From the NCBI GenBank assembly GCA_016234655.1, contig JACRAU010000019.1, positions 45,928-109,927 of the forward strand: 64,000 nt of DNA. The letters run 5' to 3'. A program made the position numbers and the translations under genes. Source of the stretch: Betaproteobacteria bacterium. Its GTDB lineage: Bacteria > Pseudomonadota > Gammaproteobacteria > Burkholderiales > Thiobacillaceae. This document shows positions 377-22,706 of the stretch, one piece after another. Positions within the stretch are counted from its first letter, which is position 1, and every line of letters begins with the position of its first letter. The notes below the pieces were generated by a model that saw only the letters and a program-made list of their open reading frames with translations, did no database searches and was not told the origin of the DNA.

Positions 377-462
377 GGTAGTCGCGCCCCCTCCCCCGGT
401 CATGCATCCTAAAGGGCATAAAGGGGAGGCTGGGAGGGGGAGTCTTGTTTCTTCCTCAGGTT

Positions 463-504
463 AACAAAACGGCCCCCTGGCAACAGGCGGGCCGTTTTGT
501 TTTG
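463..504 (+). terminator. Rho-independent terminator downstream of fbp
   Basis: Perfect 13-bp inverted repeat AACAAAACGGCCC / GGGCCGTTTTGTT followed by TTTT. Confidence 0.85.
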
Positions 505-521
505 GTCGGGCGCTGGACAAC

Positions 522-540
522 TATACGCCTCGGGCGTATA
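522..540. promoter_or_regulatory. Palindromic operator candidate for the toxin-antitoxin operon
   Basis: TATACGCC-TCG-GGCGTATA, perfect 8-bp arms, 9 nt upstream of the toxin GTG start. Confidence 0.65.
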
Positions 541-548
541 AACGAAAC

Positions 549-860
549 GTGCACACCGTCGTCGAAACCCTGTTGTTCCAGCGGCAATGGCCCCTCTACT
601 GGACGGAAGAGGAACGCGGCGCCTTCGCCGCCTATATCGCACAGCGCCCCAAGGCCGGAGATGTCGTGCCCGACTCCGGCGGTATCCGCAAGGTGCGCTG
701 GGGCAGAGCGGGTTCGGGCAAATCGGGCGGCGTGCGGGTGATCTATTTCGTTCGCAACGCCGAAGGCGAGGTGGTCTTGCTCACGCTCTATGCGAAATCG
801 AAAACCGACAACCTCACAGGCCCTAAGTTGAAGGAGATACGCCGTGCCCTCGAAGAGTAA
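549..860 (+). CDS. Type II toxin, RelE/HigB-like family
   Basis: 103 aa. GGIRKVRWGRAGSGKSGGVRVIYFV...VVLLTLYAKSKTDNL is characteristic of RelE/HigB-like toxins. Overlaps the downstream Xre gene. Confidence 0.88.
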   Translation: MHTVVETLLFQRQWPLYWTEEERGAFAAYIAQRPKAGDVVPDSGGIRKVRWGRAGSGKSGGVRVIYFVRNAEGEVVLLTLYAKSKTDNLTGPKLKEIRRALEE

Positions 861-1155
861 GAAACTCAGCCCGGCTGAACTGGCCGCCTACGAAGCCAAG
901 CGCGACCTCGGCGCCGAGCTGTTGCAGTCGGTGCGCGAAATGAAGGCGGGCAAGGTCGCCGTCGTCACCTCGCCGGTGATCGAGGCGCGCCGGAAGACCG
1001 GCCTGTCCCAGTCGCAATTCGCCGCGCTGATTGGCGTCTCCGTCCGCACCCTGCAAAACTGGGAGCAGGGCCGTAAACAGCCGAGCGGCGCGGCGAAGAC
1101 CCTGATCAAGGTGGCCGAACGGCATCCCGAAGTGCTGCAAGAGCTGGCAGCCTGA
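844..1155 (+). CDS. Xre/HTH antitoxin (HigA/NadS-like)
   Basis: HTH_3 signature ARRKTGLSQSQFAALIGVSVRTLQNWEQGRKQPSGAA. Overlaps the toxin gene. Confidence 0.9.
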   Translation: MPSKSKKLSPAELAAYEAKRDLGAELLQSVREMKAGKVAVVTSPVIEARRKTGLSQSQFAALIGVSVRTLQNWEQGRKQPSGAAKTLIKVAERHPEVLQELAA

Positions 1156-1242
1156 TGCAAGCGTTAGCTCGAAGGCGGTTTCGCGCAGCAAGCCGCCGGA
1201 GAACTGATGATCGCATTCGGCGCAATGCTTCGCGATTGCGCC

Positions 1243-2085
1243 CTACAGCAAACGCCCGCCGCTGACTCGCGGCTGCCCTGCCAAGTCCTGTTCCAGAAAC
1301 ACCTCGGCATAGCCCGCCGTCTTCAGTAGTCCCTGCACTGTCTCACCCTGGTCGTAACCGTGCTCGAACAGCAGCCAGCCGCCGGGGGCGAGATGGCATT
1401 TCGCCTGGGCAACGATGAGCCGGATGGCATCGAGCCCATCCGGGCCGGAGGCCAGGGCGTTTTGCGGTTCGAAGCGCAGGTCGCCCTGCGTGAGATGCGC
1501 GTCGGCCGCGGGGATGTAGGGCGGGTTGCTGACGATCATGTCGAACTGCCGGTCGTCGAGCGCGGCGAACAGGTTGCTCGCTATGAACGCCACTTCGGCA
1601 TCCAAGGCGGCGGCGTTGGCGCGGGCGATGTCGAGCGCCGGGGCGCTCAAATCTACAGCGGTGACGGCGAGGTCGGGCCGCTCCAGTTTCAAGGTAATGG
1701 CGATGCAGCCGCTGCCGGTGCCGATGTCGAGCACGCGGGCGTTTTGCGGGGCGCGCTTGAGCGCGGCCTCGACCAGGTGTTCGGTCTCGGGGCGGGGGAT
1801 CAAGACGCCGGGGCCGACTTTGAACTCGCGGCCGTAGAACTCGCGCTGGCCGACGATGTAGGCCACCGGTTCGCCCTGGCGGCGGCGCTCGATCAGGGCC
1901 TGCAGCGTTGCCAGCCGTTCCGGCGAGAGCTCGTCGCGGTCGTGCGCGATGAGCCAGGCGCGGTTTACGCCGAAACCGTGACCGGCGAGGGCGGCGGTCT
2001 CGATGCGTGCCTCGTGGCGGTCAAGGCCGAGCTGGCTTGCCAGTTCGAGGGCGGCGGAGTCCAGTGTTTGGCGCAGGCTTGGCAT
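1243..2085 (-). CDS. prmC: Peptide chain release factor N(5)-glutamine methyltransferase
   Basis: GREF.V...VLIPRPETE, VLDIGTGSGCIAITL, NPPYIP motifs. Confidence 0.95.
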   Translation of the reverse strand: MPSLRQTLDSAALELASQLGLDRHEARIETAALAGHGFGVNRAWLIAHDRDELSPERLATLQALIERRRQGEPVAYIVGQREFYGREFKVGPGVLIPRPETEHLVEAALKRAPQNARVLDIGTGSGCIAITLKLERPDLAVTAVDLSAPALDIARANAAALDAEVAFIASNLFAALDDRQFDMIVSNPPYIPAADAHLTQGDLRFEPQNALASGPDGLDAIRLIVAQAKCHLAPGGWLLFEHGYDQGETVQGLLKTAGYAEVFLEQDLAGQPRVSGGRLL

Positions 2086-2121
2086 GCTGAAATGGAGGTG
2101 TGGGTAGGCGCATTATCGGCC

Positions 2122-2149
2122 AAATAAAAAGGCCGCCGAAAGGCGGCCT
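2122..2149 (-). terminator. Rho-independent terminator for the minus-strand gene at 2172-2630
   Basis: AGGCCGCC-GAAA-GGCGGCCT hairpin followed on the minus strand by a T-rich tract. Confidence 0.75.
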
Positions 2150-2171
2150 CGAAATGGGCTATTGGGTTTGG

Positions 2172-2630
2172 TCACCACAGGGGGATGCTGCCAATGAGTT
2201 CCACAATGTCGGCGTTCAACGATTGGGATGCAGTGATGTTGCAGTTGTTTAATGTGATCTTGACGTTGGTGGCGGTGCGGGTGGCGATGTCCCAAGTCCC
2301 GGAAAGGCTGCGCGAGCATTGAAGGTTGCCGGTGGTGCCGCCAGACAGGGTGATCGATGTGGTGTCCTGCAGGTTGGCGTTGTAGGAATTGCCGCCGACG
2401 TTCAGGAACTGGCCGGAAGCCGTGATCGTGCCGTTCATTGTGGTGGAGTCGCCAGTGTCGGGCCGGCAATTGTTCAGGGTCATCGTCCAGGTGATGGCCC
2501 CCGTGGTGGCGTCCCAGTCGCCGTTCAGGGTGCGGCTGCCGCCGCCCTCGCAGGGATAGGGGATGCTGAAGGTGCTGGCTTGGGCGGCGGTGGCAAACAG
2601 AGCCGCCAAGACAAATATGAACCGCTTCAT
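2172..2630 (-). CDS. Small secreted hypothetical protein (signal peptide, Thr/Asn/Gly-rich)
   Basis: MKRFIFVLAALFATAAQAS signal peptide; about 152 aa. The longer ORF call (to 3251) overlaps the neighbouring gene. Confidence 0.65.
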   Translation of the reverse strand: MKRFIFVLAALFATAAQASTFSIPYPCEGGGSRTLNGDWDATTGAITWTMTLNNCRPDTGDSTTMNGTITASGQFLNVGGNSYNANLQDTTSITLSGGTTGNLQCSRSLSGTWDIATRTATNVKITLNNCNITASQSLNADIVELIGSIPLW

Positions 2631-2716
2631 GTCGAGTCTCCTGAGTATCGGTTGTTGCGGCCTGCCCATGAAGGGCAAGCAGATTAGCACCCAGGCCAAG
2701 CCAGGCGCGTCTATTT

Positions 2717-3130
2717 TCAGGGCTTGGGCTTGTAGCCGCAGGCCAGCTTGAAGGCGGCGGCCTCCAGGCCTTTTTCCGGCACGGCCTGTTGCAGCGGCTT
2801 GCCGTCCAGGGTCATCGAGTTCTGGGTGTGCACGACCTCGTCGCCGTTTTTCAGGACATAGCTGTTCAGCACCATCTGCTTGTCCTTGCACTGGAAGAAA
2901 TAGAGCTGCTCGCTGCGGTCGTAGACCTTTTCCATGAACGGCATGCGGGTCGGTTTGTCGAACAGGATTTGGATGTAGGCGGTGACCGCGTTGCCGCGCC
3001 GCTCGAAGCGATCCTTGTCGAGCGAGACCTTGCCGGCCGATTCGACCTGCGTCGTGCCGACCCATTGTTCCCCGAAGGCGGATACGGTATACATCAGGGC
3101 CGCGACCCCTACCCAACGCAATGCTTTCAT
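2717..3130 (-). CDS. Secreted hypothetical protein, surface-adhesin E-like
   Basis: Signal peptide, then EQWVGTTQVESAGKVSLDKDRFERRGNAVTAYIQI...; pattern typical of short surface-adhesin-E-like proteins. Confidence 0.55.
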   Translation of the reverse strand: MKALRWVGVAALMYTVSAFGEQWVGTTQVESAGKVSLDKDRFERRGNAVTAYIQILFDKPTRMPFMEKVYDRSEQLYFFQCKDKQMVLNSYVLKNGDEVVHTQNSMTLDGKPLQQAVPEKGLEAAAFKLACGYKPKP

Positions 3131-3147
3131 TGAATTTTCCTCTGGCT

Positions 3148-4674
3148 ATGTATCGGAAGAACCGATTTATCGGCGCGGCCATTTTAGCCGCATTTGCCGC
3201 CTTGTTGGCCGCCGGCCCGGCCGGGGCGGCCGATGCCGTGCCGGATAGCATCGTCGTCCGCTATCAGGACATCGTGCTGCCGGGCGACCACGGTCGGATT
3301 ATCAATCTGCTGTCGGCCGACACGGCGGTGGTGGCGGTCGATATGGCCGGGGCGGCAAGCCCCGCCGAGCGGCAGGCCCGCTTGCGGCAACGCTTGGAAC
3401 AGATTCGCGGCGATGCGCGCGTGCGCCATGCCGAGCCGAACCACGGCGGCCGGTTCGAGGGCCTGCTGGCGGCGACGCCGAACGACCCGGAATACGCCCA
3501 GCAATGGTGGCTACCGGCGCTGGGCGACCGCTCGATGTGGGCGGTGGGCACCGGCGAGGGCGTGACCGTGGCGGTGATCGACAGCGGCGTGGACTTGAGC
3601 CACCCGGACCTGGCGGCCAACCTGCTCGCCGGCTACGACTGGGGCGACCAGGACGGCAACCCGCAAGATGCGCTGGGCCACGGCACGCGGGTGGCCGGCA
3701 TTATCGCGGCGGCGCAGAACAACGGCGTTGGGGTGTCGGGCCTGGCGCCGAAGGCGAAGATACTGCCGGTGAAGGTGAGCCCCGGCAGCCAAGGCAGTTT
3801 TTCGTCGGACGTGCTGGCCCAGGCGATCCGCTACGCGGTCGACATGGGCGCGCAGATCGTCAACCTGAGCCTCACCGTCGACCAATCGACCCAGATCGTC
3901 GGCGAGGCGGTGCAGTACGCCTTGGATCGCGGCGTGGCCGTGGTGGCGGCGGCCGGCAACACCGGCGGCGCGGTGGCCTTCCCGGCCAGCATGGCGGGCG
4001 TGATCGGCGTCGCCGCGACGGACGAGACCGGCAAGCTGGCCTCGTATTCCTGTTTCGGCCCGGAGGTCACCGTGGCCGCGCCGGGCTCGTCGGTCACCAC
4101 CACCCTGCTCGGCGGGACTTATGGCTACGGCGCGCCAGGCACCTCGTTCTCCGCCCCCATCGTCAGCGCCGCGCTGGCCGACCTGCGCTCGCTCAATCCG
4201 GCCTTGCCGGTGAGCGGCTATGCCGGCTACCTGAAGGCCAATACCACGGCCATCGCCGGCGGCAGTTATAGCTTCGGCCTGTTGCAGGCGGGGCAAATGG
4301 GGCTGGCGATGATTCCGGCGCTGACGCCGGACAAGACCCTGTACGGCCAGGCCGATGCGGTCTCGCTCGATTACCGCCTGCCGCCGACCGGCGGCGCGGT
4401 GGACATTTATGTCGCGGTGATCACCCCGGTCGGCGAATTCGTGCTGCGGCCGGACGGCCAATGGAGCCTGGTCGGCAGCTATGTGCCGGTGGCCGTCTCT
4501 TATAGCGGCGCGGCGGCGCTGACCGGACGGCTGTTCGGCGCGGGCGGCGCCTTTCCGGCCATCGCCATGGCCGGCCTGCCGGCCGGCAGCTACACCTGGC
4601 GCGTCGCGCTGATCGACCGGGCCAGCGGCCGCCTGATCGGCGCGGTGAATACCGCCGACATGGCCGTGCAGTAG
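3148..4674 (+). CDS. Subtilisin-like (S8) serine protease, secreted
   Basis: Catalytic triad motifs VIDSGVDLSHPDL, GHGTRVAGI, GTSFSAP; signal peptide. Start may be 3121 or 3148. Confidence 0.93.
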   Translation: MYRKNRFIGAAILAAFAALLAAGPAGAADAVPDSIVVRYQDIVLPGDHGRIINLLSADTAVVAVDMAGAASPAERQARLRQRLEQIRGDARVRHAEPNHGGRFEGLLAATPNDPEYAQQWWLPALGDRSMWAVGTGEGVTVAVIDSGVDLSHPDLAANLLAGYDWGDQDGNPQDALGHGTRVAGIIAAAQNNGVGVSGLAPKAKILPVKVSPGSQGSFSSDVLAQAIRYAVDMGAQIVNLSLTVDQSTQIVGEAVQYALDRGVAVVAAAGNTGGAVAFPASMAGVIGVAATDETGKLASYSCFGPEVTVAAPGSSVTTTLLGGTYGYGAPGTSFSAPIVSAALADLRSLNPALPVSGYAGYLKANTTAIAGGSYSFGLLQAGQMGLAMIPALTPDKTLYGQADAVSLDYRLPPTGGAVDIYVAVITPVGEFVLRPDGQWSLVGSYVPVAVSYSGAAALTGRLFGAGGAFPAIAMAGLPAGSYTWRVALIDRASGRLIGAVNTADMAVQ

Positions 4675-4790
4675 GAGGGCCCTCCTGGGCCCGAACGACG
4701 GCGTGGCGATTGGGTAGGTGGGTTGTTCGCGGCCGGGATACCCAAAGGGCATAAAGGCCGCTCCCACAAGGACGCCGCTCCCACACACAA
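4672..4790. repeat. REP-like palindromic repeat cluster with loop-borne CCCAAAGGGCATAAA motif
   Basis: gtaggagggccctcctgggcccgaac and ttcgcggccggga...ggccgctcccac; matches other copies in the window. Confidence 0.85.
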
Positions 4791-4844
4791 GGCCGGCGCT
4801 GCGGATTCTGCGATAATCGGCCTTTCCCCGCGACCCTCCGTGCC

Positions 4845-5663
4845 ATGCATTCGAGCAAAACCGTTCCCGCCGATATCTTCCTCAGCCTGACCCGCCATGC
4901 CGGCCTGGCCCGGCAGATGGTCAAGCGCGAGGTGCTCGGCCGCTATCGCGGCTCCTTCCTCGGCCTGCTCTGGTCCTTCGTCAACCCGGTGCTGATGCTG
5001 GCGGTCTATACCTTCGTCTTCGGCATCGTGTTCCAGGCGCGCTGGGGCCAGGGCAGCGGCGACCGCCTGGAATTCGCATTGGTGCTGTTCGCCGGCCTGA
5101 TCGTGTTCAACCTGTTTTCCGAATGCCTCACCCGCGCGCCGGGCCTGGTGCTGGGCAACGTCAATTACGTGAAGAAGGTGATCTTTCCATTGGAGATACT
5201 GCCCTGGGTGTCGCTCGGTTCGGCCTTGTTCCATGCTGCCGTCAGCCTGGGCGTGCTGCTTTTGTTTCTGTTGTTCGCCGGGCATGGCATTGCGTGGACG
5301 GCTTTGTTGTTGCCGATCGTGCTGGCGCCGTTCGTGCTGCTGATCCAGGGCCTGTCTTGGCTGCTGGCCTCGATCGGCGTGTTCGTGCGCGACATCGGCC
5401 AGGTGGTGGGCATGGCGATGACCGTGCTGTTGTTCATGAGCCCGATCTTCTACCCGGCCGATGCCTTGCCCGAGGCGGTGCGCGGCTGGCTGTTCCTCAA
5501 TCCGCTTACCTTCATCATCGAGCAGAGCCGCGACGTGCTGATCTGGGGCAAGCTGCCCGATTGGCAGGGCCTGTCCGTTTACGCCTTGTTGGCCTTGGCC
5601 GTGGCTTGGGCCGGCCTGTTCTGGTTCCAGAAGACGCGCAAGGGATTCGCCGATGTCCTCTGA
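4845..5663 (+). CDS. wzm: ABC-2 type polysaccharide export permease (Wzm-like)
   Basis: REVLGRYRGSFLGLLWSFVNPVLMLAVYTFVF; MSPIFYPADALPE..R.W.FLNPLTFIIEQ.R; next to an ATPase. Confidence 0.93.
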   Translation: MHSSKTVPADIFLSLTRHAGLARQMVKREVLGRYRGSFLGLLWSFVNPVLMLAVYTFVFGIVFQARWGQGSGDRLEFALVLFAGLIVFNLFSECLTRAPGLVLGNVNYVKKVIFPLEILPWVSLGSALFHAAVSLGVLLLFLLFAGHGIAWTALLLPIVLAPFVLLIQGLSWLLASIGVFVRDIGQVVGMAMTVLLFMSPIFYPADALPEAVRGWLFLNPLTFIIEQSRDVLIWGKLPDWQGLSVYALLALAVAWAGLFWFQKTRKGFADVL

Positions 5664-6870
5664 GCCGATCATCGCGGCCCGCAATCTGGGCAAGTGCTAT
5701 CAGTTGTACAGCAAGCCGCAGGATCGGCTGAAGCAGTTCCTCGCCCGTGGCCGGCGCCAGTATTTCCGCGAATTCTGGGCGTTGCGCGACGTGAGCTTCG
5801 ACATCCGGCCGGGCGAGGTGGTCGGCATTGTCGGCCGCAACGGTGCCGGCAAATCGACCCTGTTGCAACTGGTCTGCGGCACGCTGACGCCGAGCGTCGG
5901 CGAGATCGCGGTCAAGGGCCGCATCGCCGCCTTGCTGGAGCTGGGCGCCGGCTTCAACCCCGAGTTCACCGGGCGCGAGAACGTGTTCATGAGCGCGGCG
6001 GTGATGGGTATACCTGAGCATGAGATTGCGGCGCGCTACGAAGAGATCGTCGACTTCTCCGGCATCCGCGACTTCATCGACCAGCCGGTCAAGACCTATT
6101 CCAGCGGCATGTACGTGCGCCTGGCCTTCGCGGTGGCGACCAGCGTCGACCCGGACATCCTGGTCATCGACGAGGCGCTGTCGGTCGGCGACGGCGAGTT
6201 CGCCCGGCGCTCGTTCGACCGGATCATGGCCTTGAAGGAGGCGGGCAAGACCATCCTGTTCTGCTCGCACACGATGTATCAGATCGAGGCCTTGTGCGAT
6301 CGGGTGCTCTGGCTCGCGCACGGCCATGTGGAGATGGACGGCGAGCCGGCCAAGGCGGTCGCCGCCTACGGTGCAGCGTTGATCGCGGCGGCGGCCGGCG
6401 AGCCGGCGGCGGCACGGCCGGTCCCGACCGGCACGGCCAGGATCGTCCAGACCGGCGCCAGCGTCGATGGCGTCGCGGGGCGCAAGCTGGTCGCGCGCAG
6501 CGGCGCCTCGACCCTGCAAGTGCGGGTGCGCTTCGAGTCGGACCCGGCCAAGCCGGCGCCGACCGTGGCGGTGTGCATCACCGGCGCCGACCGGCGGATC
6601 ATCGCCAGCGCCGGCAGCCATAACGATGGCGTCGCCATTCGGCGCGAGGCCGACGGCGGCGGCGAGACAAGCGTCGTGTTCGAGCGCTTGGCCTTGCTCA
6701 AGGGCGGCTATGCGGTGGACATCTATCTGTTGTGCGAACGCGGCATCCACGTGTTCGAGTATGTGATGGCGGCGGTCGAGCTGGAGGTGACGCAGGCGGG
6801 TCTGGAGCAGGGCATCGTCAGCCTGCCGCACCGATGGGAACAGGAGTCGCATGCCGTATCGGCCGAATAA
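5653..6870 (+). CDS. wzt: ABC transporter ATP-binding protein with C-terminal carbohydrate-binding domain (Wzt-like)
   Basis: Walker A GRNGAGKST, signature YSSGMYVRLAF, Walker B ILVIDEAL; C-terminal beta-rich extension. Confidence 0.93.
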   Translation: MSSEPIIAARNLGKCYQLYSKPQDRLKQFLARGRRQYFREFWALRDVSFDIRPGEVVGIVGRNGAGKSTLLQLVCGTLTPSVGEIAVKGRIAALLELGAGFNPEFTGRENVFMSAAVMGIPEHEIAARYEEIVDFSGIRDFIDQPVKTYSSGMYVRLAFAVATSVDPDILVIDEALSVGDGEFARRSFDRIMALKEAGKTILFCSHTMYQIEALCDRVLWLAHGHVEMDGEPAKAVAAYGAALIAAAAGEPAAARPVPTGTARIVQTGASVDGVAGRKLVARSGASTLQVRVRFESDPAKPAPTVAVCITGADRRIIASAGSHNDGVAIRREADGGGETSVVFERLALLKGGYAVDIYLLCERGIHVFEYVMAAVELEVTQAGLEQGIVSLPHRWEQESHAVSAE

Positions 6871-9541
6871 CTTCCTGGGCCGCGTCTATCCGACCGCCGA
6901 CCTGGCGGCGTTGGGGCATGCGCTAGGCATCCAGCCGGGCGAGCGGGTGTTGGATGCGGGCGGCGGCGGGGCGCCCTTGCCCGAGGCGACGGTGGTCGTC
7001 GAATACGACTTGGCGTCGGGCCACGACCGCGACGGCGCCGGTGCGCCGCTGGATGCGCGCTGGGTCGCGGGCGACGTGCAGGCGCTGCCGTTCGCCGACG
7101 GCGCCTTCGATTTCGCCTATTGCAGCCATGTGCTGGAGCACGTCGCGGACCCGGCCCAGGCCTGCGAGGAGCTGATGCGCGTCGCGCGCCGCGGCTATAT
7201 CGAAACGCCGCGCAAGCTGAGCGAGCTGACCGCCGGCCACCCGACCCACCGTTGGCTGGTCGAGGTGGTCGACGGCGTGCTGACCTTCGAGCGCCGCTGG
7301 TTCGTCGAGCACCCGCTGCAAAACCTGGCCTTGGCCCATATCCTGAATCATCCGGACGCGATGGATCGCGCCTTGGTCGAATACCGCAACCTGACCTGCG
7401 TGCAGTTGGCCTGGACGGGACGCTTCGAATACCGCGTGGTCGAGACGCCGAACTGGCGCAATTTGTTCGATTACGACAACCCGGTGCATGCGGCCTGGTC
7501 GCATTATTTCTATGCCTTGAACCTGTTGGGCAACGGCGCGCCGGCCGACTACGTCGCCGGCCACCCGGTGCGCGCGGCCGACCTGCTGCCGGGCGAGCCG
7601 CGCTTCCACCTACTCGACGGCGCGGTCAAGCTGCTGCAAGGACGGACGGCCGAGGCCGGCCGTGCCTTGGCGCGCGCCGCCGAATTGGGCTCGGACGACG
7701 AGGCGCTCGCGCGCAATCTGGAATTGCTGCACGCGGCCACCGGGCCGGCCAAGGGGTGTTTCTTGCCCGACGGCCGGGGCTGGATCGAGCGCCGGCACGA
7801 TACCGGGCCGGCCATGCCTGCGCGCGGTACGGCCTTGCCGCACCGGCGCCTGGCCTATCCCTTGAACGTCTATGCGCACCTGCTCTACCTCAAGGAGGGC
7901 GAGGCCGATGATCCGCACTACGGTCTGTTCGCGCCGACGCAGCAGCGCTCGTCGCAATTGCTGCTGTCGCGTCTGCCCGCCGTGCCTTGCCGCCTGCTGG
8001 CGGTCGGCGTCGGCCTGGGGGTCACGCTTGCGCAACTGGCCGAGCGCGGCCACGCCATGACCGGTATCAGCGCCGATCCGGAGCAGATTGCCTTGGCCCG
8101 GATGCGGCTCGGCGCGCGCGCCGACCTGCTCTGCGTGCGGCTGGAAGATATGCCGGCCGAACTGGGGCCGTTCGATCGGGTGCTGTTCCAGGAGTCGGCG
8201 CAATACATCGACCTGCTGGCGCTGTTCGAGCAGACGGCGCGCTTGCTGCGGGACGACGGCGAGCTGCTGATCCTGGACGAGATCGCTTGGCGCCGGGTGG
8301 CGCCCGGTGCCGAGGGCCTGCACCTGGCCCAGGACCTGCTCGCCATGGCCAAGCGTTTCGGCTTCGAGCTGGTCGAGCAGGAGGACTTGTCGCAACAGGC
8401 CGCGCCGACCGTGGATTACCGGATCGCAGGCTTGGCCGCCGAGCGCGCGCGCCTGGTCGCCGACCTCGGCGTCAGCCCGGCCCAGATCGACGAGCTGATC
8501 GCGGCCAACCGGCGCCACCGGGAGCGATACGCCGACGGCCGCTTCGGCTATTGCCTGCTGCGTTTTCGCAAGGCGCGCCAGCCGCGCTGGCGTCTGGCGG
8601 CCAGGGCCGAAGCCGATACGCCGGCGCTGCTGGCCCTGTTCCAGCGCGCCTTCGGCCACGCGATGGCGCCCGAGCAATGGGCCTGGAAATACGGCGACGG
8701 GCATGGCCACGGCACGGTGGTCTGGCAAGACGGCCAGCCGGTCGCGCACTACGGCGGCATGGGCCGCCGCATCCTGTATCGCGGCCGGCCCGAGTGGGCG
8801 GTGCAGATCGGCGATGTCATGGTCGAGCCGGCCGAGCGCGGGGTGCTGACCAAGGGCGGGCCGTTCTTTCTGGCCGCCGCCGCCTTCCTCGAACGCCATA
8901 TCGGTTTCGGCCGGCGCTACCTGCTCGGCTTCGGTTTTCCCAATGCGCGGGCGATGCGGGTCGCCGAGCGGCTCGGCCTCTATGCCGAGGTCGGCAGCCT
9001 GGTGGAACTGGCCTGGCCGGCCCTGGCGCGCGGCGATATGTGGCATCGGCGCACGCGGCCGCTCGACCCGAATGCGCCGCGCGACCGGCATGCGGTGGAC
9101 CGGCTTTGGCACCAGATGGCGGCCGGTCTGGGCGACGCGATCGTCGGCGTGCGCGATTGGCAGTGGATCGAGCGCCGCTATTTGACGCAGCCGCAGGGCG
9201 CCTATCGTCTGTTCTTGCATACCGATTGGCCGAGCGGCAAACCGCGCGGCCTGCTGGTGCTGCGCCGGCACGACGACAGGGTGGAGTTGCTCGATGTCGT
9301 CGCACCGTTGGCCGAACTGCCCGATCTGGTGCAGGCGGCCCGGCGCATCGCCGGGCGTTGGGGCTTGCCGAGGCTGGAGTGCTGGATCACGCGGGAACAT
9401 GCCGACAGTCTTGGCACTGCCGAGCGGACGCTGCGCGATCTCGACATCCGGGTGCCGGCCAATGCCTGGACCGCCGCGCCGCCGATGGCCGAGGTCGCCG
9501 GCCGTTGGTGGTTGATGTCGGGCGATACCGATTTCCGCTAG
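6851..9541 (+). CDS. Three-domain fusion: SAM methyltransferase + second SAM methyltransferase + GNAT-like acetyltransferase
   Basis: 896 aa. VLDAGGGGAPLP...FDFAYCSHVLEHV (MTase 1); LLAVGVGLGVTLAQLAERGHAMTGISADPEQIALAR (MTase 2); C-terminal ADTPALLALFQRAFGH...QIGDVMVEPAERG (GNAT-like). Confidence 0.8.
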   Translation: MPYRPNNFLGRVYPTADLAALGHALGIQPGERVLDAGGGGAPLPEATVVVEYDLASGHDRDGAGAPLDARWVAGDVQALPFADGAFDFAYCSHVLEHVADPAQACEELMRVARRGYIETPRKLSELTAGHPTHRWLVEVVDGVLTFERRWFVEHPLQNLALAHILNHPDAMDRALVEYRNLTCVQLAWTGRFEYRVVETPNWRNLFDYDNPVHAAWSHYFYALNLLGNGAPADYVAGHPVRAADLLPGEPRFHLLDGAVKLLQGRTAEAGRALARAAELGSDDEALARNLELLHAATGPAKGCFLPDGRGWIERRHDTGPAMPARGTALPHRRLAYPLNVYAHLLYLKEGEADDPHYGLFAPTQQRSSQLLLSRLPAVPCRLLAVGVGLGVTLAQLAERGHAMTGISADPEQIALARMRLGARADLLCVRLEDMPAELGPFDRVLFQESAQYIDLLALFEQTARLLRDDGELLILDEIAWRRVAPGAEGLHLAQDLLAMAKRFGFELVEQEDLSQQAAPTVDYRIAGLAAERARLVADLGVSPAQIDELIAANRRHRERYADGRFGYCLLRFRKARQPRWRLAARAEADTPALLALFQRAFGHAMAPEQWAWKYGDGHGHGTVVWQDGQPVAHYGGMGRRILYRGRPEWAVQIGDVMVEPAERGVLTKGGPFFLAAAAFLERHIGFGRRYLLGFGFPNARAMRVAERLGLYAEVGSLVELAWPALARGDMWHRRTRPLDPNAPRDRHAVDRLWHQMAAGLGDAIVGVRDWQWIERRYLTQPQGAYRLFLHTDWPSGKPRGLLVLRRHDDRVELLDVVAPLAELPDLVQAARRIAGRWGLPRLECWITREHADSLGTAERTLRDLDIRVPANAWTAAPPMAEVAGRWWLMSGDTDFR

Positions 9542-10698: not shown

Positions 10699-10705
10699 GC
10701 GCGGC

Positions 10706-11527: not shown

Positions 11528-11712
11528 TTTGTGGTACCCTCTGCGTGGATTTTCGCGGCGCTCCGCCGCCTGGGCGACGTGGCGGTAGCGTCTTCCGCCC
11601 GGCGGCGAGGATGCCGAATGATAACCCAAACGGCGAAGCCGGGCCGTGGCCCGATTTTCCGGCGACAACCCCGAGACGTTTTCCTGTAGACGCTATTGAA
11701 CCGACTAGGGCC

Positions 11713-15258: not shown

Positions 15259-16262
15259 CCCTGAAACTTTGGCAGGCAAAAGGGCGGTCTGTGCTGCGGG
15301 TGCTGCGGGATGAAGGTGTGTCTGGCCTTGCCCGCAGGCTGCGTCGTCGCTTGGCTGTGGTGTCTTGCCAAGGCGGCTCCGCATACCATGGCCAGCAGGC
15401 AAGCGGCTTGGCAGTTGCTTGCGGTATGAGCAAGATCGAGAAGGCGCTTCATCGGGTGGATACGAAGGGGCGCGGGCTGGAGATCGGGCCGAGCCATAAC
15501 CCGATAGCCCCTAAGGCAAAGGGTTTTAACATCGACATTCTCGATCACGCCAGCCAAGACGCGTTGCGGCAGAAATATCGCGATCATGGCGTCAATATTG
15601 ACGCTATCGAAGAGGTGGATTTCATCTGGCGCGGCGAACCGCTCGATGAATTGGTGGGCACGCCAGAAGCCTATGATTACATTATCGCCTCCCACGTCAT
15701 CGAACACACGCCAGACCTGGTTTCTTTCCTGCAACAATGCTCAAGGCTGCTAAAACCATCGGGTGTCTTGTCTCTGGTGATTCCAGACAAGCGCTATTGC
15801 TTCGATTATTTCCGCTGGCCGAGCAGCACCGGCGATGTGCTGCAGGCGCATTTTGAGCGCCGTAAATGGCATCCACCCGGGACCGTGTTCGATCATGTGT
15901 CGCTGGCGGCCAAGCTGGATGGGAATATTGCCTGGTCGCCGGGAATGAAGGGGGAGCTGGCCTTTGTACACAGTCTGCCCGCTGCCGCGGCGGCGTGGCA
16001 AGAGGCGATAGATAGCGACGATTTTATTGACGTTCATCAGTGGCGATTTACGCCATCGAGCTTCAGGCTGCTGCTCATGGACTTGGTCAGCCTGGAATTG
16101 GTCGACTTGACCGAGGTCTGCGGTTTCGAGACGTCTGGCTGCGAATTCCATATCACTCTGGAGCGTGGCGCGGGTGTGCCAAACTACGACCGATTGCAAC
16201 TGGCACAGGCGATTCTAAGAGAGTTGGCCGATGGGATATTGGCGAATGGTCGTGCTGGCTAG
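15255..16262 (+). CDS. Class I SAM-dependent methyltransferase
   Basis: GLEIGPSHNPIAPK...YDYIIASHVIEHTPDLVSFLQQCSRLLKPSGVLSLVIPDKRYCFDYFR. Start uncertain (TTG 15255 suggested). Confidence 0.8.
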   Translation: MTLKLWQAKGRSVLRVLRDEGVSGLARRLRRRLAVVSCQGGSAYHGQQASGLAVACGMSKIEKALHRVDTKGRGLEIGPSHNPIAPKAKGFNIDILDHASQDALRQKYRDHGVNIDAIEEVDFIWRGEPLDELVGTPEAYDYIIASHVIEHTPDLVSFLQQCSRLLKPSGVLSLVIPDKRYCFDYFRWPSSTGDVLQAHFERRKWHPPGTVFDHVSLAAKLDGNIAWSPGMKGELAFVHSLPAAAAAWQEAIDSDDFIDVHQWRFTPSSFRLLLMDLVSLELVDLTEVCGFETSGCEFHITLERGAGVPNYDRLQLAQAILRELADGILANGRAG

Positions 16263-16271
16263 TCGTCATGT

Positions 16272-17285
16272 TTGGGCAGGATGCTCGGCAGGGTCATGAA
16301 CTTCGCTCACCCGAAGGCGGCAGTCGCTGTCATCGTCGTCAACTACAATAGCGGCGAGTTGCTGCGGCGCTGCCTGGCTGCGCTAACCCGGCAGACCTAC
16401 CCATCGTTTCGCGTGATCGTGGTCGACAATGCCAGCAGCGATGATTCGCTGAAGGGGGTTGGCGAGTCATTCCCCGACACCCAAATCCTCCGGCAGTCGG
16501 CAAATCTTGGCTTTGCAGCCGGCAACAATGCAGGTATCGCGGCGGTGGGCGACTGCAAGTGGATTGCCTGCCTCAACCCCGATGCCTTCCCTGAGCCCGA
16601 TTGGCTGGCCAGCCTGATGGCGGCGGCAGCGCGCTACCCGGATTGCGCCTCATTCGGCAGCCGGTTGATCATGGCCGAGGACCCCGCGCGGTTGGATGGT
16701 ACCGGCGATGTCTATCACGTCAGCGGCTTGGCTTGGCGGCGGGGTCATGGCAGGTCGGTCGAACGTGGCATAGGCGAGGGCGACGAAATCTTCGCCCCTT
16801 GCGCCGCCGCCGCCTTGTACCGGCGTGATGCGCTGGCCGATGTCGGCGGCTTCGATGCGAGCTACTTCTGTTATTTCGAGGATGTCGACCTTGGCTTCCG
16901 GCTGCGCTTGCGGGGTTATCGCAGCCGCTATGTGCCCGAGTCGCGCGCGTTGCATGTGGGCTCGGCGATCACCGGCTTCCGCAGTGATTTCAGTATCTAC
17001 CACGGCCACCGGAATATGGTGTGGGCCTATTTCAAGAACATGCCAACGCCTTTGCTTTGGCTTTATTTGCCGCAGCATCTCTTGGCGAATGTGCTGACCA
17101 TCCTGCTCTATGCCGGCAGGGGGCGGGGCGGGGCGATCCTCAAGGCCAAATGGCATGCACTGAAGGCCATGCCCGAGATATGGCGCGCGCGACGGGAAGT
17201 ACAATCGAGACGCAAGGTAGGGGCGCGTGAAATTCGGCGGCAACTGTGCCGCAAACCGTTGGCGCCCTATTGGAAAAGGGTTTAG
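16272..17285 (+). CDS. GT2 glycosyltransferase (WbbL/rhamnosyltransferase-like)
   Basis: VAVIVVNYNSGELLRRCL.AL.RQTYPSFRVIVVDNASSDDS...NLGFAAGNN...CLNPDAFPEPDWL. Confidence 0.9.
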   Translation: MGRMLGRVMNFAHPKAAVAVIVVNYNSGELLRRCLAALTRQTYPSFRVIVVDNASSDDSLKGVGESFPDTQILRQSANLGFAAGNNAGIAAVGDCKWIACLNPDAFPEPDWLASLMAAAARYPDCASFGSRLIMAEDPARLDGTGDVYHVSGLAWRRGHGRSVERGIGEGDEIFAPCAAAALYRRDALADVGGFDASYFCYFEDVDLGFRLRLRGYRSRYVPESRALHVGSAITGFRSDFSIYHGHRNMVWAYFKNMPTPLLWLYLPQHLLANVLTILLYAGRGRGGAILKAKWHALKAMPEIWRARREVQSRRKVGAREIRRQLCRKPLAPYWKRV

Positions 17286-17299
17286 GGAGGCGCTGTAAA

Positions 17300-17560
17300 G
17301 GTGGTTTGTTCGCGGCCGGGAGGCCGCTCCCACAGAGTGTGTTGTAGGAGGCCCCTCCTGGGGCCGAACGACAGCGTGGCGATTGGGCAGGTGGTTTGTT
17401 CGCGGCCGGGAGGCCGCTCCCACAGGGTGTGTTGTAGGAGGGCCGTCCTCGGCCCGAACAACGGCGCGGCAATAGGGCAGGTGGTTTATTCGCGGCCGGG
17501 AGGCCGCTCCCACAGGGTGTGTTGTAGGAGGCCCCTCCTGGGGCCGAACAGCGGCGCGAG
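17300..17560. repeat. Tandem REP-like array, three units with exact 90-bp period
   Basis: gtggttt(g/a)ttcgcggccgggaggccgctcccacag...ttgtaggaggcccctcctggggccgaac starting at 17301, 17391 and 17481. Confidence 0.9.
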
Positions 17561-17704
17561 GAACTTGTGGCGGCTAAAAATGTTCAAACCCCGTCGCTTC
17601 GATTAAGATGGCGAGCGTTTTTGCGCGGAATGGCGGCCTTTTGCATGCTTTTGGCTGTCGGCGCGGCTTCTGAAAATAGGAATCCGTCTGTGAGATTGCA
17701 TTTA

Positions 17705-19843
17705 ATGAAAATGCTGCGTTCGTTGTTGCAGGCGTCTTGCCTCGGTGTGTGCATGGTTGCGGCTGCCGGCTGGGCCGATGGCATGGAGCCGGTGCCAGGC
17801 TCCGCCGAGAACCCTTTCTTCAAGGCCGAAGAAGGCGCAGGCCCGGCGCCCGCCGCCGCCCCGACCAAACCCGCCGAGCCCGTTGCGCCCGTTGCGCCCG
17901 CCGCTTCCACGCTCGACCTGAAGATCGACACCGGTTCGATCCAGGTGCATCAACCCAAGGTCTCGACCGTGCCGCAGCCCGGCGTCGCCTTGCGCTTCGA
18001 CAATGCCGACATCTACGAGGTGGTGCAGACCATCCTGGGCGACATCCTCAAGCTCAACTTCATCATGGACCCGGGCGCCACCGGCAAGGTCACCATCAAC
18101 ACCTCCGGCACGGTCAGCCAGGCCGATATCTACAGCATCCTCGAGCGCATCTTGCAGATGAACGGCCTGTCCCTCGTGCGCGAGGGCGGGCTGTACAAGA
18201 TCATCCGCGACGCCAATGCGCCGCGCGATGCGCTCGGTTTCGAGGCGGCCGGCAACGGCTCGCCGGTCATCCAGATCATCCCGCTCAAGTTCGTCCAGGC
18301 CTCGGGCCTGATCAACGTGCTGCGCAACTTCGTCGGCCCGCAGGCCGCGATCTTCAACGACCCGACCAATCGCTACGTTATCGTCGCCGATCGTGTGGCC
18401 AACATACAGAAACTGGTCGAGATCGTGAAGACCTTGGACGTGGACTACCTGCGCGAGGTCAAGATCGACTTCATGCGCCTGGAGCGCAGCGATGCCGTCG
18501 AGCTGGCGCGCGAGATGGAGACCCTGTTCAAGCAGTCCGGCATGTTCAACTGGCCCGGCACCGAGGGCAACAAGGTCTTCTTCATGCCGATCACGCGCAT
18601 GAACGGCGTGCTGGTGGCCGCCGCCAACGAGGACATCCTGGCCGCCGCCCGCAAATGGCTGAAATTGTTGGACGGCGAGCAGCAGGACGTGGCCTCGCGC
18701 GTGCGCATCCATCACGTGCAAAACACCCAGGCGACGCATCTGGCCGACATCCTGCGCCAATTGTTCGGCGGTGCGCCGGCGGCGCCCAGGGCCGACAAGG
18801 TGGTCATCGGCGGGGCGGTGCCGGCCGCCGGCGGCGCCGGCCTGTCCGGTGCGGTGCAGATCATCCCGGACGAGGCGACCAACACCCTGGTCATCAAGGC
18901 CAACCCGCAGGACTACCTGCTGATCAAGCAAGTCATCGACAACATCGACAAGGTGCCGCGCCAGGTGCTGATCCAGGTCATGGTGGCGGAGGTGACGCTG
19001 AACGACGAAACCAAGTTCGGCGTCGAATGGTGGCTGAAGAACGCCAAGACCAAGATCGGCGGCGACCTGTACCCCGCCCAGCTCAAGCTCGACAGCGGCC
19101 TGGTCGCGCCGACCGCCAGCACCATCACCGGCGACCTGGCCAAGGGCGTGAGTTCCGGCCTTAACTATATGCTGCTCGACGGCGCCGGCGACGTGATCGG
19201 CCTGGTCAATGCCCTGTCGACCACCACCGACATCAACCTGCTGTCCGCGCCGCACGTACTGGCCAGCGACGGCAAGGAGGCCAAGATCGAGGTCGGCAGC
19301 GACGAGCCGGTGGTGACCCAGACCGTCTCCACCCCGACTGCGGCGACTAGTGCCACGGGCACGACGACCAGCCTGTCCACCTCGAACAGCGTGCAATACC
19401 GGCCGACCGGCATCCTGTTGTCGGTCAAGCCCAATGTGAACGAATCCGGCCTGGTCACCCTGGTGCTGTCGCAAGAAGTCAGCAACCGCGGCAACAGCGT
19501 GCTGGTCGGCGGCCAGGAATATCCCTCCTTCAGCAAACGCAAGGTCAATACCGAGGTCACCCTGCAAGAAGGCCGCAGCCTGCTGGTCGCCGGCCTGATC
19601 CAGGACAAGGCCAATAACAGCGATACCGGCATCCCCCTGCTCAAGGACATCCCGGGGCTGGGCTACCTATTCGGCGCCACCGGCAAATCCCGGCAAAAGA
19701 CCGAGCTCATCATCACCCTGACCCCCTATGTGGTGCGTACCCGCGAGGAGGGTGAGCGGGTCACCGAGTCCTTCAAGCGCAGCCTGCAAGAGCTGAAGGG
19801 CGTGATGAAAAAGGCCGACGAGACCTTGGCCAAGGGCAAATGA
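17705..19843 (+). CDS. gspD: Type II secretion-type secretin (GspD family)
   Basis: N0/N1-like VALRFDNADIYEVVQTILGDILKLNFIMDPGATGKVT; secretin core VPRQVLIQVMVAEVTL, LLSAPHVLASDGKEAKIEVG, GIPLLKDIPGLGYLFG, ELIITLTPYVV. Confidence 0.93.
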   Translation: MKMLRSLLQASCLGVCMVAAAGWADGMEPVPGSAENPFFKAEEGAGPAPAAAPTKPAEPVAPVAPAASTLDLKIDTGSIQVHQPKVSTVPQPGVALRFDNADIYEVVQTILGDILKLNFIMDPGATGKVTINTSGTVSQADIYSILERILQMNGLSLVREGGLYKIIRDANAPRDALGFEAAGNGSPVIQIIPLKFVQASGLINVLRNFVGPQAAIFNDPTNRYVIVADRVANIQKLVEIVKTLDVDYLREVKIDFMRLERSDAVELAREMETLFKQSGMFNWPGTEGNKVFFMPITRMNGVLVAAANEDILAAARKWLKLLDGEQQDVASRVRIHHVQNTQATHLADILRQLFGGAPAAPRADKVVIGGAVPAAGGAGLSGAVQIIPDEATNTLVIKANPQDYLLIKQVIDNIDKVPRQVLIQVMVAEVTLNDETKFGVEWWLKNAKTKIGGDLYPAQLKLDSGLVAPTASTITGDLAKGVSSGLNYMLLDGAGDVIGLVNALSTTTDINLLSAPHVLASDGKEAKIEVGSDEPVVTQTVSTPTAATSATGTTTSLSTSNSVQYRPTGILLSVKPNVNESGLVTLVLSQEVSNRGNSVLVGGQEYPSFSKRKVNTEVTLQEGRSLLVAGLIQDKANNSDTGIPLLKDIPGLGYLFGATGKSRQKTELIITLTPYVVRTREEGERVTESFKRSLQELKGVMKKADETLAKGK

Positions 19844-19865
19844 GTTCGCGGCGCCCCCTCACGGG

Positions 19866-20050
19866 GGTGTTGTAGGAGGCCCCTCCCGGGGCCGAACAAC
19901 GGCGTGACGATTGGGTAGGCTGGTTGTTCGCGGCCAGGAGGCCGCTCCCACAGGGGGCGTGGTTTATCGCGGCGAGGATTTATGCCCTTCGGGTGCGCCG
20001 CTCCCACAGAGGGTGTTGTAGGAGGCCCCTCCCGGGGCCGAACAACCGCA
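19866..20050. repeat. REP-like cluster upstream of RAYT, with inverted loop motif
   Basis: Two gtaggaggcccctcccggggccgaac units and two cgcggc...gccgctcccac units. The second has tttatgcccttcggg in its loop. Confidence 0.9.
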
Positions 20051-20072
20051 ACAAAAAACCAAGGAGGCCGCC

Positions 20073-20513
20073 ATGCGTTACCACAGCCAAGACCTGCGCC
20101 GCGGCCGCCATTCCGAACCGGACCGCATCTACCACGTCACCACGGTCACGCACGAGCGAAATCCTGCTTTTCTTCCCCTTGCGGCTGCCCGCGCAGTCAT
20201 TCGGGTGTTGGCCGACTTGCACGCTCGCGGCCGGGCCGAAACCTTGGCCTATGTCCTCATGCCCGATCACCTGCATTGGCTGATGCAATTGGGCGATGGG
20301 GCCGACCTATCCAAGACCGTTGCTGCAATGAAATCCCTCGGCGCGCGTCGGCTCGGCCGGGGCCGACTATGGCAGCCGGGCTTTCACGACCACGCCATTC
20401 GGCGGGACGAAGACATCCAGGCCGTGGCGCGCTACATCGTGGCCAACCCCTTGCGTGCCGGCCTGGTGGAAGACATCGGGCAATACCCCCATTGGGATGC
20501 CAAATGGCTGTAG
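20073..20513 (+). mobile_element. REP-associated tyrosine transposase (RAYT, Y1_Tnp/HUH type)
   Basis: RIYHVTTVTHERNPAFL, HUH motif LMPDHLHWLMQL, catalytic Tyr region ARYIVANPLRAGLV; flanked on both sides by REP-like palindromes. Confidence 0.92.
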
Positions 20514-20706
20514 GAGGCCCCTCCTGGGGCCGAACGACGGCGCGGCAATAGGGTAGGTGGTTTGTTCGCGGCCGGGAGGCCGCTCCCACAGAGGGAGTTG
20601 TAGGAGGGCCGTCCCCGGCCCGAACACCAGCTAAAGGGCATAAATCCCCGGCCCGAACACCGGCTCCCACGGGGCATAGGGAGGCCCCAGCCGGGGCCGA
20701 GCAAGG
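20509..20706. repeat. REP-like cluster downstream of RAYT
   Basis: tgtaggaggcccctcctggggccgaac; cgcggccgggaggccgctcccac; gtaggagggccgtccccggcccgaacaccagctaaagggcataaatccccggcccgaacaccgg. Confidence 0.9.
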
Positions 20707-20783
20707 TTATGATTCCATTAGTGGCCGAATCCAAAGGATGCAAGGCCGCCCCGCTTCATTGTTTATGATTGACTGGAAAAGCC

Positions 20784-21011
20784 ATGCGCACCGTTGGCCA
20801 CCGCAAAGAACGACCGATTGCCTTCTCGGCTTCGGCGGCGTTGTTGGTCGAAGGCGCTCGATTCAACGATGAAATCCATCGTTTGCCCACCGGCCGCACA
20901 AGCCTGGTCCGAAAGGGCTTGTTCCGCTTCAAGACGCATGAAGACGCCAATCGTCACGAACTCGAATGCCTAGCCGAGGGCATCGCCAAAATCGCGCTGG
21001 GGCGCGCCTAA
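20784..21011 (+). CDS. Small hypothetical protein, 1-nt overlap with a nucleotidyltransferase
   Basis: MRTVGHRKERPIAFSASAALLVEGARFNDEI...; stop overlaps the ATG of the next gene (TAATG). Confidence 0.6.
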   Translation: MRTVGHRKERPIAFSASAALLVEGARFNDEIHRLPTGRTSLVRKGLFRFKTHEDANRHELECLAEGIAKIALGRA

Positions 21012-21502
21012 TGGAAGAATACAGCCGCCCGGCCACGCTGGAAGACCTGAAGGCCTTGATCGGCGCGTTAAACCGCCAGGGCGTCGAATACCTCTTGATC
21101 GACGGCTATGCCCTGTTTGCCCACGGTTATCACCGAGCGACCACGGATATCGACCTACTGGTACCCGCCACCCAAGAGACCGGACAGAAGATCAAGGCGG
21201 CCTTGATGGTGTTGCCCGACCAGGCAGCAAAAGACATTGACCCGGCTTGGTTTGAAGAGGGCGAGAACATCCGCGTGGCGGACGCCTTCGTGGTGGATGT
21301 GATGCTCAATGCCTGCGGCGAGACCTATGACACCTTGAAACGGTATGTCGAAACCATAGACCTGGAGGGGTTGCCGGTTCATACGGTCAACCTGGAAGGT
21401 CTATTGCGCACCAAGCAAACGATGCGGGACAAGGACATAGCCGATCGCCGCATCCTGGAGCAGGCCTTGAAGGCGCTTAGAGAGCAGGGCAAGGGCACGT
21501 GA
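21011..21502 (+). CDS. Nucleotidyltransferase-fold protein (AbiEii/MNT-like)
   Basis: GVEYLLIDGYALFAHGYHRATTDIDLLV matches the NTase GG/GS...DxD pattern; ...LLRTKQTMRDKDIADRRILEQAL. Confidence 0.75.
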   Translation: MEEYSRPATLEDLKALIGALNRQGVEYLLIDGYALFAHGYHRATTDIDLLVPATQETGQKIKAALMVLPDQAAKDIDPAWFEEGENIRVADAFVVDVMLNACGETYDTLKRYVETIDLEGLPVHTVNLEGLLRTKQTMRDKDIADRRILEQALKALREQGKGT

Positions 21503-21519
21503 CCTGTTTGCGGTTTATT

Positions 21520-21680
21520 CGCGGCGAGGAGGCCGCTCCCACAGGAGGTGTTGTAGGAGGGCCGTCCTCGGCCCGAACAACGGCACGGCAATAGGGCAGG
21601 TGGTTTGTTCGCGCTCCCACAGGGGTATTGTAGGAGGGCCGCACCCTAAAGGGCATAAATCCCCGGCCCGAACCTCGGTT
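21520..21680. repeat. REP-like cluster, includes a loop-expanded copy
   Basis: ggagggccgtcctcggcccgaac followed by ggagggccgcaccctaaagggcataaatccccggcccgaac. Confidence 0.88.
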
Positions 21681-22170
21681 AAGGCAACAAACCCGGCCAC
21701 GCCTCTTTGGAAAGCCGTGCGTGTGCGAAACGGTTGAGCGCATTGTAGGTTCCGATCAACACCCCAACCAATTCGTGCGCCCGGTTCATGGCCTGTGCGA
21801 ATTCCTCTGCCTGGGCCATGTATTCATGGATCAGCCGGTTGCGCAGGTTACGCGCATCCAGCCAACTCTCCACGCTGGGGAGCAAGCCGAGTTTTTCCAT
21901 CCTATTGAGGTTATCGAGGTTGCTGCCGGGGGTTTCGGCCGGGGCCCCGCCCCGTTTGTTCGCGGCCAGGAGGCCGCTCCCACAGGGGTGTTGTAGGAGG
22001 CCCCTCCCGGGGCCGAACTAAGCCTCGTCCTGCTCCAAGCTGGCTACCGTGTCTGCGGTGAGAGATGTCGCAAATAGGCGGGAATCCGAGTTCAAAAGCC
22101 ACCGCCCCTCACGCCGCACGATATCCAATAGCGCAAGGAAGCGCTCGGTCTCGATTTCGCGCGCTGTCAT
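21679..22170 (-). pseudogene. HepT-like HEPN ribonuclease gene interrupted by a REP element
   Basis: Minus strand: MTAREIETERFLALLDIVRREGRWLLNSDSRLFATSLTADTVASLEQDEA* then REP, then in-frame GSNLDNLNRMEKLGLLPSVESWLDARNLRNRLIHEYM... with HEPN motif RNRLIHEY. Confidence 0.75.
21957..22019. repeat. REP-like element inside the hepT-like gene
   Basis: ttcgcggccaggaggccgctcccacaggggtgttgtaggaggcccctcccggggccgaac. Confidence 0.9.
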
Positions 22171-22469
22171 CACAGCGCCACTCCCATATCCCGCGCGACC
22201 TCGTGAATCGGGCTTTCGGCCGTGTCCGGGTCGACCACGAGCACGTCGAAGCGCTGCTCGCCCAAGCGCATTTGCAACAAGCTGGCCATGCGGCAGGCGC
22301 TGGCCGCCCGATTGGCCAGCTTGGTTGGAGACTCGATCAGCAGGTCGATGTCGCCGCCATGGGCGCCATCGTCAACGCGCGAGCCAAATAGGCGCACCTG
22401 GGCGTCCGGCCCAAACAATTCGTGGGCGGTCGAGACGATAACAGCACGTGCTTTCGGGCTGATGCGCAT
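22170..22469 (-). CDS. MNT-domain nucleotidyltransferase (MntA-like)
   Basis: VRLFGSRVDDGAHGGDIDLLIES (GSxxDDxAxxGDIDLL); stop overlaps the hepT-like start (TGATG). Confidence 0.82.
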   Translation of the reverse strand: MRISPKARAVIVSTAHELFGPDAQVRLFGSRVDDGAHGGDIDLLIESPTKLANRAASACRMASLLQMRLGEQRFDVLVVDPDTAESPIHEVARDMGVAL

Positions 22470-22555
22470 GCGAGGCTCACGGAAACGAATGGCATGATAA
22501 TACGACACAAGGCATGAAGGAGGGTCGAGCAGCGGTGCAATGGGTATGCAGGACG

Positions 22556-22706
22556 CCGCTCCCACAAGAGATGTTGTAGAAGGGCCGCACTAAAGGGCAT
22601 AAATCCTCGGCCCGAACACCAGCGCGGCAATAGGGCAGGTGGTTTATTCGCGGCCAGGAGGCCGCTCCCACAGGGGATGTTGTAGGAGGCCCCTCCCGGG
22701 GCCGAA
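22556..22706. repeat. REP-like cluster upstream of the S-layer-like gene
   Basis: gaagggccgcactaaagggcataaatcctcggcccgaac; cgcggccaggaggccgctcccac; gtaggaggcccctcccggggccgaac. Confidence 0.88.

Follow-up and report, generated by a model that had tools for sequence, protein, structure and literature searches.

A micro-insert of only 16-18 nt sits with exact boundaries inside other repeats in a 64-kb stretch of a Thiobacillaceae genome (Betaproteobacteria bacterium, assembly GCA_016234655.1, contig JACRAU010000019.1, positions 45,928 to 109,927; this whole stretch of 64,000 nucleotides is called the window) and recurs in genomes of other phyla. The inserted unit has the form Y-ACCC-N(2-5)-GGGCATAAA, with the left border set by aligning filled against empty repeats. 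It inserts exactly, keeps a constant sequence, shows a target preference, is patchily distributed, carries lineage-specific loops and spreads together with its host repeats. From these properties we infer, with a probability of roughly 45%, a non-autonomous mobile micro-element: a micro-hairpin resembling repetitive extragenic palindromes (REPs), which would be moved as a single strand by an HUH-type enzyme and amplified by its hosts.

The precision of the insertion follows from pairs of filled and empty repeats. To find such pairs, the unit was removed, the 11 bases on each side were joined and an exact match was sought elsewhere in the same genome. The source genome (G000; 2.67 Mb in 34 contigs) has empty twins identical at 22 of 22 flanking bases, with 0 mismatches, for no fewer than three repeat families; Methylobacter marinus has them for four (including GTCGCGATGTG|GGCATCGC, TAGGTCGGGTT|AGCGCAGCGTA and AAGGTACGCAC|TGCGTACC), and G302 and G335 for one each. 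The target site is not duplicated in these pairs: the filled repeat minus the unit equals the empty one exactly, with no repeated flank. Filled and empty loops of one REP even stand side by side in the window: GTAGGAGGGCCG|TCCTCGGCCCGAAC has no insert at 17434 and 21553 but carries one at 21630 and 22576. The unit also occurs in head-to-tail arrays whose period equals the length of a single insert, both in G325 (one, two and four copies of TACCCAAAGGGCATAAA inside a TCATTGCGA repeat) and in strain HTCC5015 (five copies of CACCCTAAAGGGCATAAA), and one copy is nested within another at AAAG|GGC (L046). Between species, the site downstream of fbp lacks the insert in G004, although the short loop differs there as well. 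At two other sites the relatives lack the entire REP, and therefore filled REPs travel as units too. Elsewhere in G004 (L388, L408), one CCTCCCCCATTTATGGGGGAGG palindrome is empty and another is filled with TACCCTAAAGGGCATAAG.

In the source genome, the exact 12-mer AAAGGGCATAAA occurs 24 times and its reversed control not at all, which is far above expectation from composition, and the broad unit pattern finds 28 copies. Inspection of their context places most of them inside inverted repeats, namely in the loops of GTAG-type REPs such as GCGGCC[A/G]GGA^insert^GGCCGC, GGGCCG^insert^TCCTCGGCCC and GCGGCG^insert^TCCTCGCCGC, and a few in C-rich palindromes (CCCCTCCC..GGGAGGGG). The association also holds when the repeats are searched with a query free of the motif. 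All nine insert-bearing loops of the GCGGCCRGGA/GGCCGC REP in the source genome hold the unit or a mutated form of it, and the tenth match to this pattern is an empty REP adjoining a further GGCCGCTCC; in the corresponding search of an M. marinus REP family, four of four matches are filled.

Scanning the window with CTAAAGGGCATAAA and up to two mismatches returned exactly the six copies that the first-pass annotation of this DNA had picked out (409-422, 4742-4755, 19979-19992 on the minus strand, 20631-20644, 21646-21659 and 22590-22603), against 0.23 expected from shuffled sequence and with none of 100 shuffles giving six. The motif as it had been given is real; it is, however, only the 3' part of YACCC-N(2-5)-GGGCATAAA, and its middle TAAA is not conserved. 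Three of the six are units with exact empty twins: TACCC-AAA-GGGCATAAA (17 nt; 4739-4755, plus strand, flanks GCGGCCGGGA and GGCCGCTCCCAC), CACCC-GAA-GGGCATAAA (17 nt; 19979-19995, minus strand, flanks GTGGGAGCGGCG and TCCTCGCCGCG) and CACCC-TAAA-GGGCATAAA (18 nt; 21642-21659, plus strand, flanks GTAGGAGGGCCG and TCCCCGGCCCGAAC). The copy downstream of fbp (405-422, plus strand) reads CATCC-TAAA-GGGCATAAA, which departs from the consensus at one position, and is flanked by the arms CCCCCTCCCCC and GGGGAGG..GGGAGGGGG. A copy shortened to CAC-TAAA-GGGCATAAA (16 nt; 22588-22603, plus strand) lies in another member of the REP family that hosts the copy at 21642. The left-truncated copy CTAAAGGGCATAAA at 20631-20644 (plus strand) does not lie in a loop but precedes half a REP (TCCCCGGCCCGAACACC), a compound that recurs at C18:90863 of the source genome. 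Empty twins are found on the plus strand at 17434-17459 and 21553-21578 (GTAGGAGGGCCGTCCTCGGCCCGAAC), the latter about 60 bases from a filled REP, and at 17311-17333 (CGCGGCCGGGAGGCCGCTCCCAC, the twin of the 4739 copy).

The unit has conserved ends and a middle that takes many forms (TAAA, AAA, GAA, AGA, CTA, TTC, TCGC, CACT and others). The gap between the ends measures 2, 3, 4 and 5 nt in 13, 94, 163 and 5 cases, respectively, and never 0-1 or 6-10 nt. Moreover, the middle is lineage-specific and largely uniform inside a lineage, with AGA in G187, mostly CTA in G170 and G287, and CACT or CATT in G450; some variants end in CACAAG, CATAAG or CATGAA. On the opposite strand the unit reads TTTA-TGCCC-N(2-5)-GGGTR, followed by CT or CA of the host. 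The Y of the unit is here an R that is able to pair or wobble with T, and the A.C mismatch becomes a G.T wobble that is hardly ever repaired in our data. A search of Rfam gave no match at the motif.

The insert uses many unrelated repeats and prefers a short target. Among 47 flank classes, with the GTAG REPs left out, the insertion point favours WG^NGS (A or T at -2 in 42/47, G at -1 in 32/47, G at +2 in 28/47 and G or C at +3 in 37/47), with neighbouring positions at about background; on the other strand, this corresponds to the insert followed by CT or CA. Outside long open frames, where 170 of the 249 distinct insert sites lie, a perfect stem of at least 6 bp is found near the insert in 12 of 99 flank classes compared with 2.1 (maximum 7) in 500 permutations, and a stem of at least 5 bp in 19 compared with 7.2 by permutation. 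Hairpin loops are thus enriched as hosts but not exclusive, and in many cases the insert sits in an off-centre palindrome or in repeats of another kind, such as CACAGAG, TCATTGCGAG and CCCTCTCCC repeats. The first-pass annotation had seen a nested micro-element, or else a recombination or repair scar, that favours hairpin loops. The preference for loops describes most copies of the source genome and only this minority of flank classes. The nested element is borne out by the exact boundaries and empty twins, the head-to-tail arrays, the many unrelated repeat families and the patchy distribution, whereas sequence, unit length and the preference for WG^NGS are too constant for a scar as such.

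Copy numbers are bimodal. Out of 369 sampled genomes of the class, 15 hold 3-53 copies of the broad pattern (273 in all), and counts in the remaining ones range from 0 to 2, about what the reversed control gives (28 in all; sums added by hand from the table). HTCC5015 has the highest count with 53 copies versus none in G146, and such contrasts within a family or genus also include G271 with 18 and G147 with none. A scan with the exact pattern covered 85,000 genomes, and among the matches listed are several for which whole-genome counts were made: M. marinus (22), a Desulfobulbaceae metagenome-assembled genome (MAG; 26), Endozoicomonas ascidiicola (21), a Desulfobacterales MAG (19), a Desulfobulbales MAG (15), Hydrogenovibrio (12) and Neisseria dentiae (10), with 0 for the reversed control in every one. 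Phages and plasmids gave only coding or chance matches to the unit. In N. dentiae (L316-L325), all ten copies lie inside one longer repeat that resembles an IS5-type miniature inverted-repeat transposable element (MITE) and ends in TTTTGCAAAGGTCTC; this seems to be a single insertion that was then amplified. A longer dispersed repeat of the Desulfobulbales and Desulfobacterales (L338-L352) holds two distinct units one after the other, TACCC-(ACA/GCA)-GGGCATAAG-TTTCGTTTG and CACCC-TAAA-GGGCATAAA-AGCAGACGAGCTGCTCAACTCAGC, and a repeat ending in CAGGCTGTTGAAAAA of a Desulfobulbaceae genome (G360; L334, L335) carries two inverted inserts where its other copies have only one.

In its opposite-strand layout, with a conserved tetranucleotide, a tiny hairpin with a G.T mismatch and a free loop, the unit resembles a REP in miniature. 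Like REPs and REPINs with their REP-associated tyrosine transposases (RAYT/TnpA-REP; together REPtrons), it forms short hairpins in tens of dispersed, mostly extragenic copies, has a short conserved motif on one side (TTTA) and a mismatch in the stem, and it shares space with REPs. TnpA-REP enzymes cleave at CT, the one from Marinomonas at CT or CA, which are the dinucleotides that flank the unit on the same strand, and the REPs of E. coli require conserved stem mismatches (PMC8266576). Since tetranucleotide, mismatched hairpin and 3' CT or CA match TnpA-REP recognition and cutting, an HUH-type movement is suggested. The unit would move as a folded single strand, TTTATGCCC-N-GGGTR, and an HUH-type (TnpA-REP/IS200-like) enzyme acting in trans would cut and rejoin at C[T/A] sites, with targets that may often be single-stranded or folded themselves, for instance REP loops. 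After entering a REP or MITE, it would be multiplied passively by the host repeat's own transposition. The differences to REPs are nevertheless clear: REPs are palindromes of 20-50 nt with stems of about 6-9 bp, whereas the unit, which is YACCC-N-GGGCATAAA in all genomes, has 16-18 nt and 3-5 bp, lacks GTAG or CGTC and has TTTA at the matching position. In addition, it combines a fixed stem sequence with a free loop, the opposite of the situation in REPs, it is nested in REPs as well as other repeats with nearly the same sequence across phyla, and several genomes hold it with no linked transposase. MITEs and palindrome-associated transposable elements are likewise small, non-autonomous and moved in trans, but the unit is far smaller than known MITEs and has neither terminal inverted repeats of the length a transposase uses nor a target duplication. 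The unit lacks defining features of REPs (GTAG or CGTC, and the length), of DDE-type MITEs (a target duplication) and of IS110 or reverse transcriptase products (the enzymes, as described below), yet in its workings it is akin to a small REP set into other repeats.

Several observations weigh against a micro-hairpin moved by an HUH enzyme. A Y1 transposase went undetected in G005, G293, G356, G271 and G295, all of which hold copies, and the presence of Y1/RAYT genes does not track copy number, sister pairs included. The DNA stem is weak (-1.3 kcal/mol, compared with -4.8 for RNA). Since other three-base stems in the same layout are not enriched, CCC and GGG are kept as sequence and selection on pairing itself is not shown; compensatory stems are likewise absent. 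Furthermore, the likeness in CT or CA concerns the dinucleotide only, and no insertion was observed between strains.

TnpA-REP (Y1) genes are present in the source genome and HTCC5015. The one in the window (20073-20513, plus strand; Pfam PF01797, E 5.4e-9) is of the RAYT/TnpA-REP type and lies between two insert copies (19979-20644); it is a candidate mover of the host REPs. The RAYT of HTCC5015 (L250) is also close to insert copies. In an all-against-all protein comparison of the genes within 3 kb of copies, none was linked to them apart from these two RAYT genes, and finding a RAYT near copies is no surprise, as REPs normally flank RAYT genes. An IS200 element beside one M. marinus copy was dismissed as a partner, as other IS200 copies in this genome lack the motif.

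Among other explanations, copying between repeats that share short flanks, through template switching in replication or through gene conversion and with no dedicated enzyme involved, appears unlikely, though less so than the others. The flanks often share WG and NGS as possible microhomology, the host repeats are stalling-prone palindromes, and the nested copy at AAAG|GGC would fit as well. However, copies also reside in repeats without shared flanks, for example GGTACGCAC|TGCGTACC and GTAGGTCGGGTT|AGCG, and the boundaries always enclose the same 16-18 nt, where random switching would yield variable lengths. Selection for a functional site, either a protein-binding site or an RNA hairpin that spreads because repeats holding it help the host, is improbable: it would account for a loop that drifts between ends that do not change from phylum to phylum, but a spacer of 2-5 nt is awkward for a double-stranded site, the unit is absent from G147 in the same genus as G271, it occurs in unrelated repeats in both orientations, and exact empty twins are left unexplained.

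We regard it as quite improbable that the unit is the excision scar of a larger transposon targeting palindromes. According to PMC1525189, several insertion sequences (IS) do enter REPs, with IS1397, ISPpu9, ISPpu10 and ISRm22 inserting within the palindromes at fixed positions. The insertion inside REP palindromes is thus shared, and the ends of the unit resemble imperfect inverted repeats (YACCC/GGGCA); these IS are, however, whole gene-carrying elements, several with direct repeats, whereas the unit has no gene and many unrelated hosts. Besides, no longer version was seen, the end gap is only 2-5 nt, tandem arrays require a further process, and IS110-type (DEDD) transposases are absent in nine of twelve high-copy genomes (G000, HTCC5015, G271, G293, G295, G187, G184, G302, G356). 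Even less probable is a telomerase-like addition, in which a reverse transcriptase with an RNA template would write units of 17-18 nt at palindrome breaks. Interstitial telomeric repeats at repaired eukaryotic breaks are an analogous case of one or a few short units inserted exactly and with no target duplication, and head-to-tail units of constant length would agree with this idea. In contrast to these repeats, the host sites of the unit are repeats and not unique, and no reverse transcriptase was found for it, as RVT_1 had no match in G000, HTCC5015, G302 and G206, although RVT_1 covers some reverse transcriptase classes poorly; nor was a multi-unit template locus found other than the arrays themselves. 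Chance or an artefact of sequencing or assembly has a negligible probability and is already refuted for the high-copy genomes. Some matches outside Proteobacteria and Desulfobacterota are indeed coding coincidences, such as gene codons in Vibrio and the array of Lachnospiraceae UBA3273 (L106, L353-L355), first read as a tandem case, in which the same 18 bases are codons for YPKGHK or HPKGHK, in places tandemly repeated, where LicD-like genes begin; we judge this a coincidence of the large search space. The 24 to 0 ratio over the reversed control in the source genome and the lineage-specific variants from many sequencing projects speak against such an origin elsewhere. The presence of copies both in HTCC5015 (DS990605), a Sanger-era genome, and in the single-scaffold isolate genome of M. 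marinus rules out an artefact of any single sequencing method.

A bolder form of the mobile micro-element, which we consider rather doubtful, is that the unit represents the smallest known mobile DNA, a single-hairpin transposon of 16-18 nt with its own dedicated and horizontally spread enzyme, which would insert at WG^NGS, would be active in Gammaproteobacteria and Desulfobacterota at the least and would use other repeats as landing sites and amplifiers. If true, the lower size bound for mobile DNA would drop to roughly one and a half turns of the helix. The unit would also serve as a natural label that shows where loops of REPs and MITEs have been cut and joined; to our knowledge, TnpA-REP mobility has never been seen in vivo. 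Moreover, it would explain loop-length polymorphism of REPs that is otherwise discarded as degenerate copies. With a near-constant sequence across phyla, an explicit target preference and cultivated methanotroph hosts, the mover would be traceable by co-occurrence and cleavage assays. No earlier description was found in the open-access literature with the 12-mer and six 13-17-mers on both strands, although one may exist elsewhere, and the unit does not figure in the consulted passages of papers on GTAG/CGTC repeats, stem-loop families, REP-targeting IS and RepRanger.

Finally, the window holds a cluster of small genes between REPs at 20814-22500. Two frames of this cluster (20966-21502 and 20814-21011) gave no match in Pfam; by eye, the cluster seems to comprise an MNT-like nucleotidyltransferase and toxin-antitoxin-like partners.

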